Shown here piece after piece: positions 18,306 through 27,019 of a stretch of 36,490 nt of DNA. Position numbers and translations under genes: made by a program. Source of the DNA: an uncultured Methylococcaceae bacterium. GTDB taxonomy: Bacteria; Pseudomonadota; Gammaproteobacteria; Methylococcales; Methylomonadaceae. The notes beneath the pieces are model-generated. The model made no database searches. It saw nothing but the letters and a program-made list of their open reading frames with translations, and had not been told where the DNA came from. Location: assembly GCA_903945605.1 (NCBI GenBank), contig CAJAWH010000087.1:1-36490 (forward strand). Reading direction: 5' to 3'. Positions within the stretch are counted from its first letter, which is position 1, and the number at the start of each line of letters is the position of its first letter.

Positions 18306-18335
18306 TTGACCGGATACCCATTCTCATGTTAAAAA
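18306..18335 (+). promoter_or_regulatory. Candidate sigma70 promoter for the 69-aa protein
   Basis: TTGACC (18306-18311) is a 5/6 match to the -35 box. Eighteen nt later TAAAAA (18330-18335) is a 4/6 match to the -10 box. It would give a leader of about 105 nt before the ATG at 18448. Confidence 0.35.
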
Positions 18336-18389
18336 TCACATCGTTGTTTCGATTCAATAAAACAACCGGCTCATACACTGAGTGGGCTG

Positions 18390-18408
18390 CCCCTTTAGAG
18401 GAAAGGGG
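18390..18408 (+). repeat. Leader hairpin upstream of the 69-aa protein
   Basis: CCCCTTT (18390-18396) and AAAGGGG (18402-18408) form a perfect 7-bp stem with a 5-nt AGAGG loop, about 40 nt before the start codon. The loop sequence resembles a ribosome-binding site. No U-tract follows. It could stabilise the message or control its translation. Confidence 0.45.
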
Positions 18409-18447
18409 GGATAACTATTATTTACAATAACCAGAGAGGATATAAAA

Positions 18448-18657
18448 ATGTCTGAAGTTAAAGAAAAAGATAACATGTGGTTTATCGTTGGCGCTTGCAT
18501 CGTTGGTATGCTTGTTGTTGTATTCTTCCTGAAAAGCGAAAAATCTGCCCATTTGGAAAGCGGTGCAGTACAACAATTGCAAACCGAAACCTTTTCTAAC
18601 TTAGAAAAAAGAAAAACTAGCAACAACGCAACTGAAGCGCAAAAATCAGGTAAATAA
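18448..18657 (+). CDS. Small single-pass membrane protein, unknown
   Basis: This 69-aa protein is preceded by AGAGAGG about 8-9 nt upstream, a strong ribosome site, and followed by an intrinsic terminator. Residues 1-9 are charged. Residues about 10-28 (from M-W-F-I-V-G-A to V-F-F-L) are one hydrophobic helix. The remaining 40 residues are hydrophilic, rich in K, E, S, N and Q and probably disordered, ending A-Q-K-S-G-K. Positive-inside considerations are ambiguous. I do not recognise a family. A complete, solitary transcription unit argues that it is real and probably well expressed. Confidence 0.75.
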   Translation: MSEVKEKDNMWFIVGACIVGMLVVVFFLKSEKSAHLESGAVQQLQTETFSNLEKRKTSNNATEAQKSGK

Positions 18658-18664
18658 TACGAGT

Positions 18665-18704
18665 CCCTCCGATATTTTATATAATAATGTCGGAGGGGTC
18701 TTTT
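18665..18704 (+). terminator. Intrinsic terminator after the 69-aa protein
   Basis: CCCTCCGA (18665-18672) pairs with TCGGAGGG (18690-18697) in a perfect 8-bp stem, followed by GTCTTTT. It begins 8 nt after the stop codon. Confidence 0.85.
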
Positions 18705-18998: not shown

Positions 18999-19220
18999 GT
19001 GTCCATAAATTTCGCCGATATTCTCTCCCAGATATTGCTGTCCACTGCCCACGGGCTGAGCTTGGAGCATATTGAAAACATGATTGTATCCAGCCTTATC
19101 CACGGCTTGGTTTACGGTGTCATTTTCAAATTGTTCCATGCCCTGCCGCTGCCGCTAACCATCCTTGTTGCTATTCTTGGCGTGGGCGGCATTTGGTATT
19201 ATTTTAAAAGCAGGCGGTAA
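18999..19220 (+). CDS. Small membrane protein with two hydrophobic segments, unknown
   Basis: This 73-aa protein starts at GTG 18999, with AAGGGGA about 9 nt upstream. An amphipathic N-terminal part (I-N-F-A-D-I-L-S-Q-I-L-L) is followed by hydrophobic stretches at about residues 30-46 and 50-68, and a basic end Y-Y-F-K-S-R-R. It is probably an inner-membrane protein. It converges on the acetyltransferase at the end of the glycan operon (22 nt between stops). No family is recognised. Confidence 0.6.
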   Translation: MSINFADILSQILLSTAHGLSLEHIENMIVSSLIHGLVYGVIFKLFHALPLPLTILVAILGVGGIWYYFKSRR

Positions 19221-19242: not shown

Positions 19243-19797
19243 TTAGCCTTTATTGACCGTTTTTATAACCTTGGCAGGGTTGCCAACGGCAACTGAAAAA
19301 GGCGGCACATCCTTCAAAACAACGGCATTGGCACCAATAACGCTGTCATGCCCAATCCTGATTTTCCCCAGCAGGCAAACACCTGCCCCAATATCCACCC
19401 TATCTTCTATGATGGGCAGTTCAAAATTATGAAATAGCCTAACAATGCCCATTGTGGTGTTGTGCCGGATATGCACATCGTCACCGATGGATTCAGCATG
19501 TAATATCATGCCGCTGTGATGCCAAATCCTAACCCTACGGCCCAACTTTACGGTATAGGGCAGGGTGATTCCACAAGTCCATTCAACAAACTTAAAAAGA
19601 AAGGTATAAAGCACCGTCATAGGGGCGCGTAATAATTTGGTCTTTATGCCCATGCGCCAATTACCGAACCGATGCACGGCAATAGCCCATAGGCCTTGCT
19701 CAAGAATATCCTTGTCATGGGTGATAAAATCTTCCTTAAGCAAAGCGAGGAAGCTAATATCCTTAGGATTCTCATTAGTTGAACCGTGAATTTTCAT
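19243..19797 (-). CDS. Hexapeptide-repeat O-acetyltransferase (serine acetyltransferase-like)
   Basis: This 184-aa protein has the domain order of serine acetyltransferase-like polysaccharide acetyltransferases. An N-terminal helical part (L-L-K-E-D-F-I-T-H-D-K-D...G-L-W-A-I-A-V-H-R-F-G-N-W) precedes a left-handed beta-helix with I-W-H-H-S-G-M-I-L, I-R-H-N-T-T-M-G and V-D-I-G-A-G-V-C-L-L-G-K-I-R-I-G-H. The end V-A-V-G-N-P-A-K-V-I-K is the usual acetyl-CoA-site closing motif. As the last gene of a glycosyltransferase operon it more likely acetylates a sugar than serine. ATG 19809 is an alternative start; I favour ATG 19797 for its GGTG upstream. Confidence 0.85.
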   Translation of the reverse strand: MKIHGSTNENPKDISFLALLKEDFITHDKDILEQGLWAIAVHRFGNWRMGIKTKLLRAPMTVLYTFLFKFVEWTCGITLPYTVKLGRRVRIWHHSGMILHAESIGDDVHIRHNTTMGIVRLFHNFELPIIEDRVDIGAGVCLLGKIRIGHDSVIGANAVVLKDVPPFSVAVGNPAKVIKTVNKG

Positions 19798-19834
19798 ACC
19801 CATCACCATATTAAGTGGTTAGCAAATCAGGTGG

Positions 19835-21070
19835 CTATTCAGCCGCCGCTAGCCGTCCGCCCAGCACGGCGGCAAGATGCTGGCTGTTGCGTTGCAGGTC
19901 GTAGCGTTCGCGAGTGCATTGGCTGCCCGCCAAAGCCAACTGTTGGCGCAGGGCAGGGTCATTACACAAACGGGCGATAGCGTCTGCCAATCCGTCACTA
20001 TCAGAGGCGGCAACCAGCAAGCCATTTATGCCATCGTCCAGCAACTCAGGAATACCGGCAATGCGTGTGCTGATGCACGGAACAGCCATCGCCATTGCTT
20101 CCATCAACACCACCGGCAAACCTTCGGCAAAACTAGCCAACACAAAAATGTCCGCCTGTTGGTAATAAGGCAAGAGATGATCCTGATCGACCGCTCCGGC
20201 AAATTCAACCGCATGGGCAATTTGCAAGCGTTCCGCATGGGCCTGTAATGAAGCCAAGTCAGAGCCGTTGCCAACCAAGGTCAAACTGACCGGATAGCCG
20301 CGCGCCAGTAATAATTGGACGGCATTAAGCAAAATGTGCTGGCCTTTGGCAGGTGTCAACCGACCGACACACAACAAACTGATTTTATCTGCCGCCGTTG
20401 CGCCATTATTGGCAAGTGCTTGGAAACGGTTATGATCGACACCCAAGCGGCAAAGTTCAAATTTATCCCAATCGCTGATGGGTGAAAGTTTCATTAATTG
20501 GCTACGAGCGAAATGGCTAATGCAGCAGATAAAATCGGCGGCGGCAATTTTTTCGGGCAGATTAAGTCCCGGTGCATCATAAAATTCGTCCGGACCGTGG
20601 ACGGTCATTGAAAAGCCAACCGCAAACACGGTTTTTACCAGCATCCCGACCGAAGCGGCAGGGGTAGCAAAGTGGACATGTAGGTGACGATAGCCATGAC
20701 GGGCCATCCATTGCCCAATCAGCACCGCTTCCAGCAGATAGAACAACTGGTACGCTTGGCGTTTGGCATCCCAACCGCCCAGCCGGAAACCCTGCGATAA
20801 TGCCTTGCAGACCCCCAACGGACGTTGGCAAAGGGTTTTCAGCAAAGCCCAGCCCGCTCCCTTGGCCCCTTGTTTTTTTACATAAAAAGTCTGCCGCGCT
20901 TCCTGATGTTCTTCAACGGTCAGGCTGCTTAAAGGCCGGTCAGGGGGGTTAATCGAGGCGACATCAATGCGGAAGCCCAAAGCCCGCAATTGCTGCACTT
21001 CCCTTAGGATAAAGGTATGGGACACCGCCGGATAGCGGCTAATCAGGTAGGCAATGGCAATAGGCTTCAT
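19835..21070 (-). CDS. Glycosyltransferase family 4 (EPS biosynthesis)
   Basis: This 411-aa GT-B glycosyltransferase begins MKPIAIAYLISRYPAVSHTFILREV, the N-terminus of exopolysaccharide GT4 enzymes of the WcaL/EpsE type. The C-terminal nucleotide-sugar domain has L-C-V-G-R-L-T-P-A-K-G-Q-H and the retaining-enzyme E-x7-E motif in F-A-E-G-L-P-V-V-L-M-E-A-M-A. I chose ATG 21070, which overlaps the upstream GT stop in ATGA style and has a G-rich ribosome site. Residues from the longer frame do not resemble the family. The sugar added is not readable. Confidence 0.9.
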   Translation of the reverse strand: MKPIAIAYLISRYPAVSHTFILREVQQLRALGFRIDVASINPPDRPLSSLTVEEHQEARQTFYVKKQGAKGAGWALLKTLCQRPLGVCKALSQGFRLGGWDAKRQAYQLFYLLEAVLIGQWMARHGYRHLHVHFATPAASVGMLVKTVFAVGFSMTVHGPDEFYDAPGLNLPEKIAAADFICCISHFARSQLMKLSPISDWDKFELCRLGVDHNRFQALANNGATAADKISLLCVGRLTPAKGQHILLNAVQLLLARGYPVSLTLVGNGSDLASLQAHAERLQIAHAVEFAGAVDQDHLLPYYQQADIFVLASFAEGLPVVLMEAMAMAVPCISTRIAGIPELLDDGINGLLVAASDSDGLADAIARLCNDPALRQQLALAGSQCTRERYDLQRNSQHLAAVLGGRLAAAE

Positions 21071-22320
21071 TGCCCCCCCTGTAACAATTGCCGGTAAATG
21101 GTCAGTGCTTGGGTAATCTTGGCATCCCAACTGAACTCCCGCAACACCCGCCGTTGCCCCGCCAAGCCCCGCTGTTGCCAAACTTGCGGGTTACGGACAA
21201 CATCAGTGAGCGCATCACGCAAGGCGGCAACCACATCATCCCTACCGGTGGCGGGCAGTTTTAGCCCCACCTCCTCATCAACAATTTCTGCCGGCCCGCC
21301 AAAGTCCACGGCAATTACCGGGCGACCCACCGCCATTGCTTCCAGCAACACCGCCCCGCCCGATTCGCGCACCGAAGGCAAACAAAACACATGTGCCTGC
21401 TGCATATAAGCGGCAACTTGCGCCAACGGCTGGTCACCGGCAAAAACCACTTTGTCCACCAGCCCCAGTTGTTGGCATTGCTGTTCCAATGCCACTCTTT
21501 CCGAACCATCGCCGACAATCACCAACTGGAAAGGCAGTGTCAGTTGCGCCACTGCCTGCAACAACATAGACACCCCCTTAAAGGGCAACAAGCGGCCAAC
21601 AAAGACAATTTTGAGCAATTGCGCGACATCCTGCTGAGGCCATTCGGCGGGCGTGAACAAGGTGGTATCAACGCCATTTTCCAGCATCGGCCGGCATTTA
21701 GGTTGATAACGTGGTGCTATCGCATTGAAAGTGGACGCGGTGGCGGTAAGAATCAAGCTGACGTGGCGGCTGGTGCCAACTAACCAATCAATCACATGGC
21801 CTAAGCGGCGAATGGGATAAAGCCACGCGGATTCCGCCCGCATAATGTCAGGGAAGGTGGTGGGCGACTTTAGCCCGCCATTCCAAGGCCCGACAATCAG
21901 CGGAATGCCCAGCCGGTATAAACGGCTGGCAGCCAACGGCGACACTGGAGTGACCGCATGCACCAAATCCCACTGGCTGCCTTGCCGCTGCATGAGTTGC
22001 AACTGGCGCAACGCCAGCCAGTCATACACATAAAAATCCAGTGAAGAAATCAGGAACACTGGTTGTTGGCTGCGCGGGAACAGTTTTGATGCCAGCCGGT
22101 ACAACGGGCCGGCAAACCATTCACTATCAATATAAACCACCTCGCTGCCGGGCAACGGCGCACCGGCCTGTTCAAGGGCGGCCCGATTGCGGCAATGCGT
22201 CACCAAGGTGACCGGTACTTGCTTGGCAAGACGTTGATACCATTCCCAACCAATTTGCGAAACCGAACCCATACCCGGGCCACATTGATAGGCCGATACT
22301 AACACGCGAGGTGATGTCAT
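21067..22320 (-). CDS. Glycosyltransferase family 4
   Basis: This 417-aa GT-B protein begins MTSPRVLVSAYQCGPGMGSVSQIGWEW, resembling the GT4 group whose N-terminus reads A-Y-x-C-x-P-G-x-G-S-E-x-x-x-G-W. The C-terminal domain shows F-V-G-R-L-L-P-F-K-G-V-S-M-L, L-V-I-V-G-D-G-S-E-R and the E-x7-E motif R-E-S-G-G-A-V-L-L-E-A-M-A-V-G-R-P-V-I-A. Start ATG 22320 has GGAG 9 nt upstream. A longer frame to 22521 overlaps the upstream gene. The Gly-Ser-Val where most relatives have Gly-Ser-Glu may affect acceptor choice. Confidence 0.9.
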   Translation of the reverse strand: MTSPRVLVSAYQCGPGMGSVSQIGWEWYQRLAKQVPVTLVTHCRNRAALEQAGAPLPGSEVVYIDSEWFAGPLYRLASKLFPRSQQPVFLISSLDFYVYDWLALRQLQLMQRQGSQWDLVHAVTPVSPLAASRLYRLGIPLIVGPWNGGLKSPTTFPDIMRAESAWLYPIRRLGHVIDWLVGTSRHVSLILTATASTFNAIAPRYQPKCRPMLENGVDTTLFTPAEWPQQDVAQLLKIVFVGRLLPFKGVSMLLQAVAQLTLPFQLVIVGDGSERVALEQQCQQLGLVDKVVFAGDQPLAQVAAYMQQAHVFCLPSVRESGGAVLLEAMAVGRPVIAVDFGGPAEIVDEEVGLKLPATGRDDVVAALRDALTDVVRNPQVWQQRGLAGQRRVLREFSWDAKITQALTIYRQLLQGGQ

Positions 22321-22324
22321 TGCT

Positions 22325-23449
22325 TTATTCTCCAAGGAGCTTGCTGATAACGGGATGCATATCGCTGAGGAATTGCTGTTGGCTAAAATAAGCCTTGATA
22401 AACGCGAAGGCATTTTGGGCAATAGCCTCCCTTTGTTGCGGATGGGCCAAGTAATAATCCACCTTTTCGGCAAAATCCGACAAGTCCCATGCCAGTGGCA
22501 CATAGGTCTCATAAGGGACATAAATCTGCGGCGAGCAGTCCAAGTGGGACATATCCGGCTTTAATAACAAGCTGCCGCTATACATCGCCTCAAAATCCCG
22601 CCAGCACACTTCGCCATAACCGAACGGGCTAAAGCACAACCGCGAAGCCAACAACTCTTTACGGTATTGGCTGCCGGGTACCATGCCCAAGCTAGCCGTG
22701 CTGATAGATTTGGGCAAGGCCTGCACCGCATCGTATGCCTCTTGCCGCATCTGGCTATACCAAGGCGTGCCTTTAGTGGCAATACGGGCGTGTACATCGA
22801 GAGTGCGTGCCGTGGCGGGAAAATGACCTAAAAAACGTGGCATAATATGTGCCGCAAAAGCAAAATTACTGCCCATAGCCACTTTGGGCCAGAAAGAATC
22901 CGGCACCGGATAATTGACAGTCACCTCGTCCAAACCAAAGCGGCGGGAATAGAAATCCGTTAAATTAGTGTCGCCGAGGGTCGCTTGCCCATACTGGTCG
23001 CGCTCTTTAAGCAAATGTTTTTTTAGGTAAAGGTCGATGTCGTCATTAACAATGGCGGCATAACGCAAATCGGTGGGTGCAAACCAGTCAAAATAAGCTA
23101 AGCGGCAGCTGGGGTAGGTTTCACGAATCTGGGTGACAATGGCCTGTAATGCTGCCGGACTGTCAACATACCCTGTTTGCAGACATACTGCGTCCACCCG
23201 CTGCCGGTAAGGATGATTGCCGGATTGCCAGCGTTCCAGCGGCACTTCCCGCAGTTCCAGGCTATAGCGCGAAGCCAGTTCAGCACGGTGATAAAAAAAC
23301 GGGAATAGCTGGGTGTTCGGCAAATCGCCATAGGCACTGATCATTAAAACACGGCGTTTAGCACTATCCGAAGAGAACGGCGATAGTACCCTTAACCGAT
23401 CTTGAAGGACGCGCTGTATCTGCCAACCAACAATACGCTTATCGATCAT
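22325..23449 (-). CDS. Glycosyltransferase-like protein (Glyco_trans_1_2 C-terminus)
   Basis: This 374-aa protein has a Rossmann-like N-terminal half (R-R-V-L-M-I-S-A-Y-G-D-L-P-N-T-Q). The C-terminal segment Y-G-E-V-C-W-R-D-F-E-A-M-Y-S-G-S-L-L-L-K-P-D-M, then W-D-L-S-D-F-A-E-K-V-D-Y-Y-L-A-H-P, resembles the PF13524 type of glycosyltransferase group 1. No transmembrane segment is seen. It lies 4 nt upstream of one GT4 and 3 nt downstream of the methyltransferase, so it is mid-operon. Whether it is an active transferase cannot be told from the sequence. Confidence 0.75.
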   Translation of the reverse strand: MIDKRIVGWQIQRVLQDRLRVLSPFSSDSAKRRVLMISAYGDLPNTQLFPFFYHRAELASRYSLELREVPLERWQSGNHPYRQRVDAVCLQTGYVDSPAALQAIVTQIRETYPSCRLAYFDWFAPTDLRYAAIVNDDIDLYLKKHLLKERDQYGQATLGDTNLTDFYSRRFGLDEVTVNYPVPDSFWPKVAMGSNFAFAAHIMPRFLGHFPATARTLDVHARIATKGTPWYSQMRQEAYDAVQALPKSISTASLGMVPGSQYRKELLASRLCFSPFGYGEVCWRDFEAMYSGSLLLKPDMSHLDCSPQIYVPYETYVPLAWDLSDFAEKVDYYLAHPQQREAIAQNAFAFIKAYFSQQQFLSDMHPVISKLLGE

Positions 23450-23452
23450 GGG

Positions 23453-24517
23453 CTACACCCTCCTTGCAGTGACAATCAGCTCTTCACCGGCACAAGGGTC
23501 GCTCATGCTTAAACGGTCGATCGTACGGATTTCACTGGACAATGCCGCTTTGTCCAAGCTCCGCCCTGCCGTATCGGCTTCAGTGGCGGCAATTTCTTGA
23601 CTGGCCCGATAAAACCAAGCACTGACCGGCCCGGGGCATTGGAAGCGGATATCGCCAAAGCCTGCTTCTTGGAGCGAGCTTTGCAGTGCCTTGGCAGAAA
23701 ACAACGCCAAATGCCGTGGCGGCTCCAACCCGCGCCAATAAACGCCAAAGCGGCGATGACCCGTAGCCAAGGCATTGGGGGTGGACAGCCAGAAAAACCC
23801 GCCCGGCTTTAAAATACGGTTTATCTCATGCAAAGCCCGCACCGGCTGATGCAGATGCTCAATCACATGGCTAAGGGAAACGGCATCAAAGTGATCACTA
23901 GGCAAGCCGGTGTCTGGCAAAGCGCCTTGGGTGACATTGATATGTTGCCGCTGGGCTTGTTCGACCGCCTGAGGGTCAAATTCCAGCCCCTGTGCCTGAT
24001 AGCCCAACAGCTGGGCGAGTCTGACAAAACTGCCGCTGCCGCAGCCGATATCGACCAGCCGTGCATCTGTCAAAGGCGTGGGCAAATGGCGCACATCGCG
24101 TTCCAACAGCACCCGCGCTGTTGCATTGCGGGCCAGCAATTGCCCGCCCAGCAGGTTTGCCGGTTGCCCGGCATAAGCAGGAAAGCGCCGCTTTATATAA
24201 CCAGAACGCCAACTGGGCAAACGCTGGGCCCAAAAACTAGCGTCAGACAACCATGATTCGTTAATGTCATGGGTGTAATATTCGCTATAGGCCAAACCAA
24301 TTGAAGCCTCATCAGGGCGGGGGTCAAGATAGGCACAGCCGCAGTCTTGGCAACTAAACATTGTCCAGCTACCCGGCGCGCAGAAAAAAATCCGGTCTTG
24401 CAGGTTATTATGCAGAACCTCGGCTAAACTGCCTTGGCAAACAGGGCAATGGCCCAGCCTTTGCAAATGCTGTTCAGGCCAAAGTGCGATGATGTCAGAA
24501 AGGGAGTTTTTCGCCAT
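23453..24517 (-). CDS. Class I SAM-dependent methyltransferase with N-terminal CxxC pairs
   Basis: This 354-aa protein has two N-terminal cysteine pairs (C-P-V-C and C-Q-D-C) that look like a zinc-binding ribbon. The methyltransferase fold follows: motif I V-D-I-G-C-G-S-G-S-F-V, the acidic motif G-L-E-F-D, then F-D-A-V-S-L-S-H-V-I-E-H-L and L-K-P-G-G-F-F-W-L-S-T-P-N. This is the class of enzymes found in surface-glycan and NDP-sugar clusters. It is the first gene of the five-gene minus-strand operon. Start ATG 24517 is preferred over 24583, whose extra residues do not fit. A perfect minus-strand TATAAT at 24619-24614 is a possible -10. Confidence 0.88.
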   Translation of the reverse strand: MAKNSLSDIIALWPEQHLQRLGHCPVCQGSLAEVLHNNLQDRIFFCAPGSWTMFSCQDCGCAYLDPRPDEASIGLAYSEYYTHDINESWLSDASFWAQRLPSWRSGYIKRRFPAYAGQPANLLGGQLLARNATARVLLERDVRHLPTPLTDARLVDIGCGSGSFVRLAQLLGYQAQGLEFDPQAVEQAQRQHINVTQGALPDTGLPSDHFDAVSLSHVIEHLHQPVRALHEINRILKPGGFFWLSTPNALATGHRRFGVYWRGLEPPRHLALFSAKALQSSLQEAGFGDIRFQCPGPVSAWFYRASQEIAATEADTAGRSLDKAALSSEIRTIDRLSMSDPCAGEELIVTARRV

Positions 24518-24702
24518 AGTGATACGAGCCTTAATAAATAGATAGAAAAACCGCAACAACCATTTTGTCCGATTATATATCAACTAATCCGGTAAAATTC
24601 CAATTATTTGTAGATTATACTATAGCCAATAAAATTTTGAGTTATTACCGCTGCTATGGTAGGGTTAAATAAAAGTGGCTTGCTAGCGCCAAACCACTCT
24701 AC

Positions 24703-24714
24703 AGGTGTACACCT
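24703..24714. promoter_or_regulatory. Perfect 12-bp palindrome AGGTGTACACCT, candidate operator
   Basis: The palindrome lies in the 309-nt divergent gap between the methyltransferase and the GT2 gene, about 113 nt before the GT2 start. An imperfect inverted repeat AGTGG...CCACT (24674-24698) lies immediately left of it. Such symmetry in a divergent promoter region suggests a dimeric regulator site. The rest of the gap shows no gene. Confidence 0.45.
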
Positions 24715-24826
24715 TACAGCATGACTTTCCAAACCCATTGCTTAGGGCGAGCTGCCAGATTGAATGGCAAATTTAACCCATTACCCACACTTTTCCTATC
24801 CACCAAATCTAATTAGGGTTGTATAA

Positions 24827-26023
24827 ATGGCATATTCCACCATGGGTCTTGTACTATCGGTTATCGCCACAGCGTTAGCGATTTTTCTTCTGCCCGGTAG
24901 CTTAGAGTTGTTAATCCTAAGCATTGCCGGTGTGTTAAAACAGCCCAAAACACCCTGCCAGGCCAAGACGTTGCCAAAAATGGCCATCATAGTCCCTGCC
25001 CATAACGAGGAAGACGGTATCGCCGACTGCATCGATAGCCTACGCAACGGCATAGGCACGTGCAAGGACACCGATATTGTGGTCATTGCCGACAATTGCA
25101 GCGATGGCACTGCCGCCCGTGCCGACGCATTGGGAGTGCGGGTACTGGTCAGGGAAAATACCGAGCAACGCGGCAAAGGCTACGCGCTCGACTTCGCGTT
25201 CCGGCAACTACTGGACGAAGGCTACCAAGGCTTTGTCATCGTCGATGCCGATAGCCGCGTAACAGCGGGGTTCGCCAGCACTTTCCAGCAAGCCTTAGGT
25301 AGTGGCCTTGATGCCCTGCAATGCCGCTATCAATTGCTTAATGCGCAGACCTCTTGGCGCACCTCGTTACAACACATTGCTTTGCTCGGGTTCAATGTCC
25401 TACGCTTGCGCGGAAGGCAAAAACTAGGGCTTTCAGTGGGTATCTTAGGCAACGGTTTTGCCCTCAGCCGTGACACCTTGCTGGCGGTGCCTTATGATGC
25501 CACCTCTATTGCTGAAGATTTGGAATATCACTTGCGCTTAGTGCGTGCTGGCAGAAAAGTAAGCTATATTGACACCGTCACCGTATTGGCTGCCGCCCCC
25601 ACCCAGCAGCAAGGCGCCAGCGTGCAACGTAGCCGCTGGGAAGGTGGGCGCTTCCGGCTGATAGCGGATGAAGTGCCGGGGCTAATCCGCGCAGTGTTGG
25701 CTGGGCATTGGCTATTACTGGAGCCGCTGGCGGAGTTATTGCTCTTGCCTTTGGCATTCCACGCGCTTTTAGTTGCCGTGCTGCTGTTGCTGCCCACTGG
25801 CTTGGCAATAGCCGGAGGCCTGTTATATTTGACTGTATTGCTGCTGCATCTGATTGCCATTTTTATAGTCGGTCACTGTGGCTGGCGCGAATTGAAAATA
25901 TTGGCCTCCGTGCCCTTTTATTTAATCTGGAAACTGGCCCTATTACCGCGCCTATGGCGCAGCATGGACAAAAATGCCGCATGGGAACGTACTGTAAGGG
26001 AGACTAATGACCATGAAAGCTGA
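24827..26023 (+). CDS. Membrane-associated family 2 glycosyltransferase
   Basis: This 398-aa processive-type GT2 has an N-terminal membrane helix (about 7-35). The GT-A domain contains I-I-V-P-A-H-N-E-E, the metal-binding D140-A-D142 (V-D-A-D-S), A-E-D-L-E-Y-H with the catalytic acid, and Q267-R-S-R-W271 (QxxRW). Two or three hydrophobic helices follow (about 295-350). The full D/DxD/ED/QxxRW set is that of cellulose/NAG-polymerase-like enzymes. It starts a two-gene rightward unit that ends in the overlapping GT2. Confidence 0.9.
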   Translation: MAYSTMGLVLSVIATALAIFLLPGSLELLILSIAGVLKQPKTPCQAKTLPKMAIIVPAHNEEDGIADCIDSLRNGIGTCKDTDIVVIADNCSDGTAARADALGVRVLVRENTEQRGKGYALDFAFRQLLDEGYQGFVIVDADSRVTAGFASTFQQALGSGLDALQCRYQLLNAQTSWRTSLQHIALLGFNVLRLRGRQKLGLSVGILGNGFALSRDTLLAVPYDATSIAEDLEYHLRLVRAGRKVSYIDTVTVLAAAPTQQQGASVQRSRWEGGRFRLIADEVPGLIRAVLAGHWLLLEPLAELLLLPLAFHALLVAVLLLLPTGLAIAGGLLYLTVLLLHLIAIFIVGHCGWRELKILASVPFYLIWKLALLPRLWRSMDKNAAWERTVRETNDHES

Positions 26024-26984
26024 ACTATCGATCATCATCGTTTCCTACAATACCCGCGATAGCTTGCTGGCTTGCTTGCAATCGGTGGCAGACCAAGATT
26101 ATCAAGGCAAAATCGAAACTGTAGTCATAGACAATGCTTCTCGTGATGGCTCCGCCGATGCCGTGGCTCGGGCTTTCCCCAGCGTCAAGCTGATACGTTC
26201 CGACACCAACCTAGGATTTGGCAACGCCAACAACCGGGCGCTTGACCAGGCCAGTGGACGCTATATAGTATTACTTAACCCCGATGCGCTGTTGGCTCCT
26301 GATGTCATCAGAAAAGCCGTACTGGCAATGGATGCCGATACCCGCGTGGGCATGGCAGGTGCCCGCCTGATTGGCACTAACGGCGAATGGCAACCTTCAG
26401 CCCGCATGTTCCCATCCCTGATCAACGAAATGTTAGTGTTGACCGGACTGTCTGGGCGTTATCCTAACTCGCGCTGGCTGGGCCGTGTTGACCGTAGCTG
26501 GGCAGACCCATTGCAAGCAGCTGATGTAGACTGGGTGACGGGGGCGTTTGGCATTATCCGGCGCGGGCTTATCGACCAACTGGGTTTTTTTGACCCACGT
26601 TATTTCTTGTATTATGAAGAAGTGGACTTTTGTCGCCATATCCGTCAGCAAGGCTGGCGTATTTGCTATTGGCCGGAATTGGTGGTCACCCATCTGGGCG
26701 GCGAGTCGGCAAAAACCGTCACCCACGTCGAATTCAACAGCAACGGTAGCCAGATAGACCTCTGGCGCATGTACAGCCAGCTGCTTTACTACCGCAAATG
26801 GCACGGGGCATTGGCGGCCTGGTCAGTCAAGGCATGGGAACAACTCTGGCATGCCATCCGCGTCGCCAAAAACCAGCGTAGCGCACCCGCCAAAGCCGCC
26901 GCATCAAAAGCCATCATCCAAAAATGGCGGCAGGCTTGGCAAGACACCCAAGGCGGACAACAATCGCCCCCGCAACCGTGGTAA
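26007..26984 (+). CDS. Family 2 glycosyltransferase, WbbL/rhamnosyltransferase-like
   Basis: This 325-aa soluble GT-A enzyme begins L-S-I-I-I-V-S-Y-N-T-R-D-S-L-L-A-C-L, followed by V-V-I-D-N-A-S-R-D-G-S, N-L-G-F-G-N-A-N-N-R and L-L-N-P-D-A (the DxD-equivalent region). The W-V-T-G-A-F...I-R-R block and F-F-L-Y-Y-E-E-V-D-F-C-R-H-I-R-Q are the rhamnosyltransferase-like catalytic regions. It overlaps the previous gene by 17 nt, so the two are coupled. In-frame ATGs at 26007 and 26013 are both possible starts. Confidence 0.9.
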   Translation: MTMKAELSIIIVSYNTRDSLLACLQSVADQDYQGKIETVVIDNASRDGSADAVARAFPSVKLIRSDTNLGFGNANNRALDQASGRYIVLLNPDALLAPDVIRKAVLAMDADTRVGMAGARLIGTNGEWQPSARMFPSLINEMLVLTGLSGRYPNSRWLGRVDRSWADPLQAADVDWVTGAFGIIRRGLIDQLGFFDPRYFLYYEEVDFCRHIRQQGWRICYWPELVVTHLGGESAKTVTHVEFNSNGSQIDLWRMYSQLLYYRKWHGALAAWSVKAWEQLWHAIRVAKNQRSAPAKAAASKAIIQKWRQAWQDTQGGQQSPPQPW

Positions 26985-27019
26985 GTCGCTCCGCATCCGT
27001 TCAGCGAAACCGTTATCCG

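Follow-up and report, generated by a model that had tools for sequence, protein, structure and literature searches.

We analysed a stretch of 36,490 nucleotides, here called the window, from an uncultured Methylococcaceae bacterium (assembly GCA_903945605.1, contig CAJAWH010000087.1, positions 1 to 36,490). It contains a short transcription unit with the following features.

18306–18335, + strand: promoter, with TTGACC (−35) at 18306–18311, a 17-nt spacer and TTAAAA (−10) at 18329–18334, inside CATGTTAAAAAT / CATGTTAAAAA
18336–18450, + strand: conserved leader in full, as far as the start codon, recognized by covariance model R1 at E 2e-16, the same sequence having been among those from which the model was built
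18343–18366, + strand: leader hairpin 1, arms 18343–18349 and 18360–18366, from the fold of the leader and covariation
18367–18389, + strand: leader hairpin 2, arms 18367–18374 and 18382–18389, from fold and covariation
18390–18408, + strand: leader hairpin 3, arms 18390–18396 and 18402–18408 (CCCCUUU-AGAGG-AAAGGGG), from fold and covariation
18433–18441, + strand: ribosome site AGAGAGGAT, with AGAGAGG at 18433–18439 and the family-typical GAGGAT core at 18436–18441
18448–18657, + strand: ORF for a 69-aa single-pass membrane protein of class A, from homologues and dN/dS
18665–18704, + strand: intrinsic terminator, arms 18665–18676 and 18686–18697 (one mismatch), then GTCTTTT and a T-rich tail

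The original prediction had described promoter boxes, a leader hairpin, a ribosome site, a single small ORF and a terminator in this interval, and every one of these elements could be located. The perfect hairpin it had spotted (loop AGAGG, followed by A) is indeed present, but it is the third of three tandem hairpins, the first of which lies a few bases 3′ of the expected transcription start. Downstream of the 69-aa gene we find a second small hydrophobic ORF (18999–19220, + strand, 73 aa, GTG start) that resembles DUF2955 only weakly (E 0.0038, below cut-off). The interval 19243–27000 holds glycosyltransferase-like ORFs and a hexapeptide acyltransferase and is apparently a surface-polysaccharide locus, as judged from its ORFs and one Pfam match.

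As a single sequence, the window provides weak evidence for such a unit. The 83-nt leader alone folds with a z score of −2.23 (3 of 200 shuffled sequences fold as well), and all three hairpins are found in both the minimum-energy structure and the centroid; a 95-nt fold that includes the ribosome site reaches a z score of only −1.05. The terminator of the 69-aa gene consists of a G+C-rich hairpin followed by a T tract. Generic scans of the window returned 6 promoter-like sites (4.2 ± 2.2 in shuffles) and 3 terminator-like sites (4.1 ± 1.9 in shuffles), neither count being above chance, and they pick up neither the promoter nor the terminator of the 69-aa gene. Because these scans perform no better than shuffles they are not counted as evidence, and together with the weak z score of the longer fold they leave the window sequence unconvincing by itself. 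Comparison with relatives is decisive: we accept the unit because its hairpins covary, its promoter pattern and ribosome site are nearly private to one gene family, its terminator recurs in relatives and its ORF is under purifying selection.

At E ≤ 1, a search with the single protein matched 82 of the 101 relatives. A profile search that covers all paralogue classes (E ≤ 0.01) places the protein family in 81/101 genomes, namely in 60/61 of family f1, 11/11 of f4 and 10/10 of f6, and in none of the 19 genomes from five other families of Methylococcales. When one genome from each of 84,980 species was scanned with a sequence pattern, 75 loci were returned, which carry methanotroph names (Methylovulum, Methylobacter, Methylotuvimicrobium, Methylomonas, Methylococcus, Methylocaldum and Methylothermaceae, among others), a few of them with broad or doubtful labels. 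One locus labelled Methyloversatilis (L131) has neighbour clusters in common with a Methylocaldum locus (L129), and we presume that its genome is mislabelled. Among 369 genomes sampled from the class, convincing matches are confined to three Methylococcales; three matches outside the order (E 2e-4 to 7e-4) fall within longer open frames (205–420 aa), and we regarded them as chance. In a sample of 398 genomes from the phylum, the sole match at E ≤ 1e-4 came from the window's own genome, and searches of plasmids and viral contigs returned no relative of the 69-aa protein.

A search for homologues had been proposed as a check of the original prediction. Homologues are present in 81/101 relatives. 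For class A, 20 of 21 gene pairs have a dN/dS of about 0.08–0.25, the remaining pair having no computable dS, with the caveat that the pairs share sequences and that some dS values are near saturation. By this comparison the 69-aa ORF is a real gene, with class A under purifying selection. We scanned 17 family members against Pfam and NCBIfam and obtained no match above cut-off, the profiles of known small oxidase subunits in these libraries included. A PDB sequence search yielded no credible relative of the family; weak matches to amyloid-precursor transmembrane entries (best E 0.026) were judged to be chance. Our literature search returned nothing that could be tied to the 69-aa gene.

The 69-aa protein has one hydrophobic stretch (residues 10–28, mean Kyte-Doolittle value 2.76), and AlphaFold2 predicts a single long helix, which is confident only around residues 10–30 (pLDDT is about 51–61 after residue 30). 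The membrane helix of the original prediction is thereby recovered, but its disordered charged tail is not, as AlphaFold2 models this part as low-confidence helix. A topology with the N terminus outside and the C terminus inside is weakly favoured, because the N-terminal flank is more negative (net charge −1 to −3) than the C-terminal flank (−1 to +1) in six proteins.

Members of classes A and B are about 60–70 aa long, carry the leader, and have a motif near E-K-D-N-x-W and one helix, which is mostly followed by E-T-x-H-L and then by a charged tail. Class C (about 54–67 aa, SSEHxKY-like) and class D (NEKFAPIKQQ...NIRVLN-like) have the N-terminal motif in common with A and B, and no leader of the A/B type was seen upstream of the class C and D members that we read. 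In a 17-row family alignment, no cysteine or histidine is invariant, nor is any methionine other than Met1, though members of classes A and B commonly have a histidine following the helix. Class D paralogues are found at L226–L230, L234, L237, L240 and L244. A small thioredoxin-like gene ends just upstream of L226, and the upstream sequences of L227, L228 and L244 look alike.

The leaders were collected with TTGAC 100–200 bases upstream as selection criterion, which kept 57 of 70 loci. Since this choice favours the leader, conservation of the −35 box within the 57-locus set is circular. We aligned 36 of the 56 distinct leaders, preferring complete ones, which favours structure; rows L001 and L002 are shifted by one column in hairpin 3 and were not realigned. 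RNAalifold predicts the three hairpins unaided from these 36 sequences. In a closely similar 17-pair structure, 93.6% of the cells pair, and 12 of the 17 pairs show double-sided changes (31 cells), with 3/5 such pairs in hairpin 1, 7/7 in hairpin 2 and 2/5 in hairpin 3, leaving 5/17 pairs with no double-sided change. None of 500 shuffled alignments equals the real one in pairing, double changes or covariation score, and 2/500 equal it in the number of further pair types; these figures are not probabilities, because the leaders are related and were picked for completeness. When the partners were shifted, pairing fell to 38–56% (maximum 56.0%). This slide control and the number of covarying pairs carry the argument for structure.

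Hairpin 1 is mispaired at one position in 5/36 leaders, and no hairpin 3 was called in 6/57 (L008, L009, L039, L046, L048 and L060). Five leaders folded singly all form three hairpins (z −2.23 to −4.51). Conservation of the leader hairpin, the other comparison proposed with the original prediction, thus extends to three covarying hairpins across relatives, and on this comparative evidence the leader is a structured RNA, with compensatory changes beyond chance, upstream of its gene. Nothing in the window reaches an Rfam gathering score; ranked by E-value, five weak Rfam matches occur in four loci, all far below gathering scores. Leader and protein family are absent from the family libraries searched (Rfam, Pfam and NCBIfam).

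The genome search with covariance model R1 and the whole-genome search with the promoter pattern are both independent of the TTGAC-based selection of loci. R1 has 66 matches in 51/101 genomes at E ≤ 0.05, all within f1 (51/61 genomes). Each of the 59 best matches (E ≤ 0.0023), 36 leaders having built the model, lies directly upstream of a family member. R1 leaders in G021, G044 and G048 led to divergent family members to which the single-protein search had given a weak score or none, and a match in G030 (E 0.006) also belongs to a family member. Of the six other matches beyond E 0.0023, the five that were read belong to different genes, and the sixth is G041:C73. A weak match at L179 (E 0.004) stands upstream of a gene for a small exported protein in which G-K-C motifs are repeated, and is possibly due to chance. 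In families f4 and f6 the protein is retained, but the three-hairpin leader is absent.

The strict promoter pattern TTGAC-N-CATGATAAAAA occurs 7 times in 6 whole genomes, always at class A/B promoters and each time adjoining an R1 match; the window's promoter is one base off this pattern and is not counted among the 7. The pattern TTGAC...CATGnTAAAAA is found in 27 stretches of at least 10 kb, all chosen for containing a family gene, and always just upstream of that gene. GAGGAT forms the ribosome site in 52/57 family leaders versus 2/337 other ORFs, the latter a low estimate given guessed start codons (AGGA was found at only 109) and a slightly shorter stretch examined than for the family; GGA is present at the ribosome site of all 57 leaders. 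Promoter, leader and ribosome site are, by these searches, almost private to the family.

A G+C-rich hairpin with a T tract begins no more than 30 nt past the stop codon at 52/58 class A/B loci, compared with 3/290 shuffles, and at 1/12 loci of the other classes. The conservation of promoter, leader and terminator in relatives supports a self-contained unit, as the original prediction had it. To estimate expression we compared codon adaptation with same-genome 65-codon windows from other ORFs, using as reference the ribosomal-protein region of each genome and picking ribosomal and background ORFs by length, not by annotation. At least the 96th percentile is reached by 11 of 14 class A/B genes, with backgrounds of only 7–23 windows for G006, G010 and G016, and, where the background comprises 81 windows or more, by 6 of 7. 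The exceptions, with ordinary values, are the G046 gene (70th percentile), the class B gene of G007 (73rd) and the class A gene of G006 (70th). Measured against windows from the ribosomal region, the 14 genes range from the 24th to the 97th percentile, and all but one exceed the 50th. We infer high expression of the 69-aa gene because codon usage is mostly at the level of ribosomal-protein genes, and the dedicated covarying leader suggests regulated expression; these sequence features support the original prediction of high or regulated expression. Four of the ten genes most highly expressed in Methylomonas sp. DH-1 encode hypothetical proteins (PMC6373157), which have not been tied to the family.

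Class C differs in its upstream sequence. Among strictly matched genes, TTGATnnnnnTCAA, which we take to be an FNR-type box, lies within 170 bases upstream of 6/12 class C genes versus 0/70 genes of classes A and B, and 7/12 class C genes have a gene for an FNR-type regulator at a distance of 3 kb or less; the class C pattern was strict and missed members, and L027 has too little upstream sequence. The boxes and the nearby regulator genes suggest that class C proteins may be oxygen-dependent isoforms. Class C paralogues are found at L061–L068 and L117, several with both an FNR-type box and an FNR-family regulator gene nearby.

Our best explanation, to which we assign a probability of roughly 0.6, is that the locus is a monocistronic unit with strong expression, whose product is a small inner-membrane protein that is abundant in Methylococcales methanotrophs. 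In the genomes compared, promoter, three-hairpin leader, A/U-rich stretch, GAGGAT, a predicted 60–70-aa single-helix protein and terminator are kept together in one family. Transcription would start just upstream of hairpin 1, so that the mRNA would begin with a hairpin. A 5′-terminal hairpin is a known means of resisting 5′-end-dependent decay, as in ompA, and it is moderately likely that the 5′ hairpins shield the present mRNA in the same way and so allow high output. Like our leader, that of E. coli ompA has 5′-terminal hairpins and an open ribosome site on a short mRNA for an envelope protein; here, however, three tandem hairpins covary across genera, and their stabilizing role is presumed. 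The A/U-rich stretch before GAGGAT would keep the ribosome site open. With lower likelihood, two GGA motifs, one in the hairpin 3 loop and one in the ribosome site, could act as binding sites for a repressor of the CsrA/RsmA type and provide growth-phase control. The protein would insert with its N terminus outside and its tail in the cytoplasm, and may serve a membrane complex or the internal membranes as an accessory or structural part. Oxygen-dependent isoforms would be provided by paralogues under different regulation, of which one class often has an FNR-type box.

The alternative that survives best, and that we regard as a serious though not a favoured possibility, is an ordinary small membrane protein without special control, whose leader is merely a strong expression cassette. 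The TTGAC −35 box, A/T-rich upstream sequence in many relatives (by eye), the open ribosome site and the codon usage would all suit such a cassette, but double-sided changes in every one of the 7 hairpin 2 pairs and the near-private promoter, leader and ribosome site exceed the needs of a generic strong cassette.

Somewhat more doubtful is a translational switch of the CsrA/RsmA type. CsrA dimers can bridge two GGA sites, and in the present leader a dimer would join the GGA of the hairpin 3 loop to that of the ribosome site and block translation. CsrA binds GGA motifs and represses translation (PMC4894983). By script, GGA is found in or at the edge of the hairpin 3 loop in 36/57 leaders and is missing from the loop in 21/57, a few of which were overlooked by the script as judged by eye. 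These loops, together with a GAGGAT ribosome site that is common in the family and rare at other ORFs, and with csrA in the window's genome and in 53/61 genomes, would fit a CsrA target. However, the stem often persists where the loop has no GGA, in several lineages, which argues that the structure matters by itself and that CsrA binding would not be its only role; covariation is also seen in hairpins 1 and 2, whose loops have no conserved GGA (by eye). The leader resembles CsrA/RsmA-repressed leaders in its hairpin-loop and ribosome-site GGA and in the presence of csrA, and departs from them in that the loop GGA is not universal and two extra hairpins have no conserved loop GGA.

What the protein might associate with is a separate question. 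Lineage and codon usage make particulate methane monooxygenase (pMMO) a natural guess, in which the protein would be an unassigned accessory helix of the enzyme or of its membrane arrays; we consider this unlikely. The family is restricted to one lineage in the samples searched, and its codon usage is within the range of the pmoCAB region. Among the 101 genomes, 71 have both a PmoA-family match and the family, 15 have PmoA only, 10 the family only and 5 neither, so that the family is missing from 15 of 86 genomes with a PmoA-family match. For 12 of these 15, which belong to other families of the order, the PmoA match is divergent (E 1e-85 to 1e-114), but G038, G068 and G074 have a strong match (E below 1e-120) and no family member; the 10 genomes with the family and no PmoA match perhaps reflect assembly loss. 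Given these 15 PmoA-only genomes, three of them with strong PmoA, and the 10 family-only genomes, the association between family and pMMO is incomplete, and it is confounded by phylogeny. In G040, two paralogues are located about 1.8–2.3 kb from the operon that we take to be pmoCAB (pmoA assigned by PF02461, its neighbours by their sequence), but they converge on this operon with another ORF between and are not part of it. The locus L225 (G040:C112) holds tandem paralogues at 247 and 742 with the same last 25 residues and a similar stretch upstream of each. A supernumerary helix in native pMMO was reportedly described in 2025; in the literature searched we found no paper that joins the phrase 'supernumerary helix' with pMMO. 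Extra densities in native pMMO are reported to be left unfitted by the model (PMC9445010), but no PDB chain matches the family in a library that excludes chains of unknown residues.

Other small membrane proteins offer partial parallels. CydX and CcoQ, which are small single-pass accessory subunits, are like the family in size, in having one helix and a charged tail, and in their several paralogues; in contrast to them, our proteins reach the cut-off of no Pfam or NCBIfam profile, and no oxidase operon was noticed beside five loci inspected by eye. We take the protein of PMC6189053 to be PmoD. PmoD is likewise a small methanotroph membrane protein outside the catalytic trio (PMC6189053, PMC8764830), but it is a copper protein, whereas the family has no invariant cysteine, methionine or histidine beyond the initiator in the 17-row alignment. 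In the gene neighbourhoods, there is no neighbour common to the whole family that would point to a partner, and most shared neighbours are confined to one clade. The leaderless f4/f6 copy adjoins a ychF-like GTPase gene at 9 loci (L110, L123, L132, L135, L136, L143, L233, L235 and L243), in genomes of the Methylococcus and Methylothermaceae types. This neighbour links the leaderless copies with one another. A ychF-like gene is found at none of the class A/B loci of 5 kb or more, and it is therefore no general partner.

A metabolite- or ion-sensing riboswitch is highly improbable: a covarying multi-hairpin leader bound to one gene family in 51/101 genomes would suit it, but the conserved positions are mostly those of stems, loop GGA and ribosome site with no conserved junction or pocket (by eye), hairpins 1 and 2 have loops of variable length and sequence, and Rfam gives no match at gathering score.

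To return to the strongly expressed unit that we favour, the covarying leader and the orphan family of methanotroph membrane proteins define, by sequence comparison, a conserved dedicated cassette, which probably serves high expression. At its furthest, and we rate this as quite unlikely in full, the finding would mean that a previously undescribed cis-regulatory RNA of three hairpins, with a GGA loop and GAGGAT, controls order-specific abundant membrane proteins that act as oxygen-regulated accessories of methane-oxidation membranes (pMMO arrays or internal membranes). Isolated pMMO is less active than whole cells, which suggests missing components (PMC6189053). An order-restricted, conserved and apparently highly expressed orphan membrane protein is a concrete candidate for functional study in these methanotrophs, and its leader and promoter may provide a strong native expression part.
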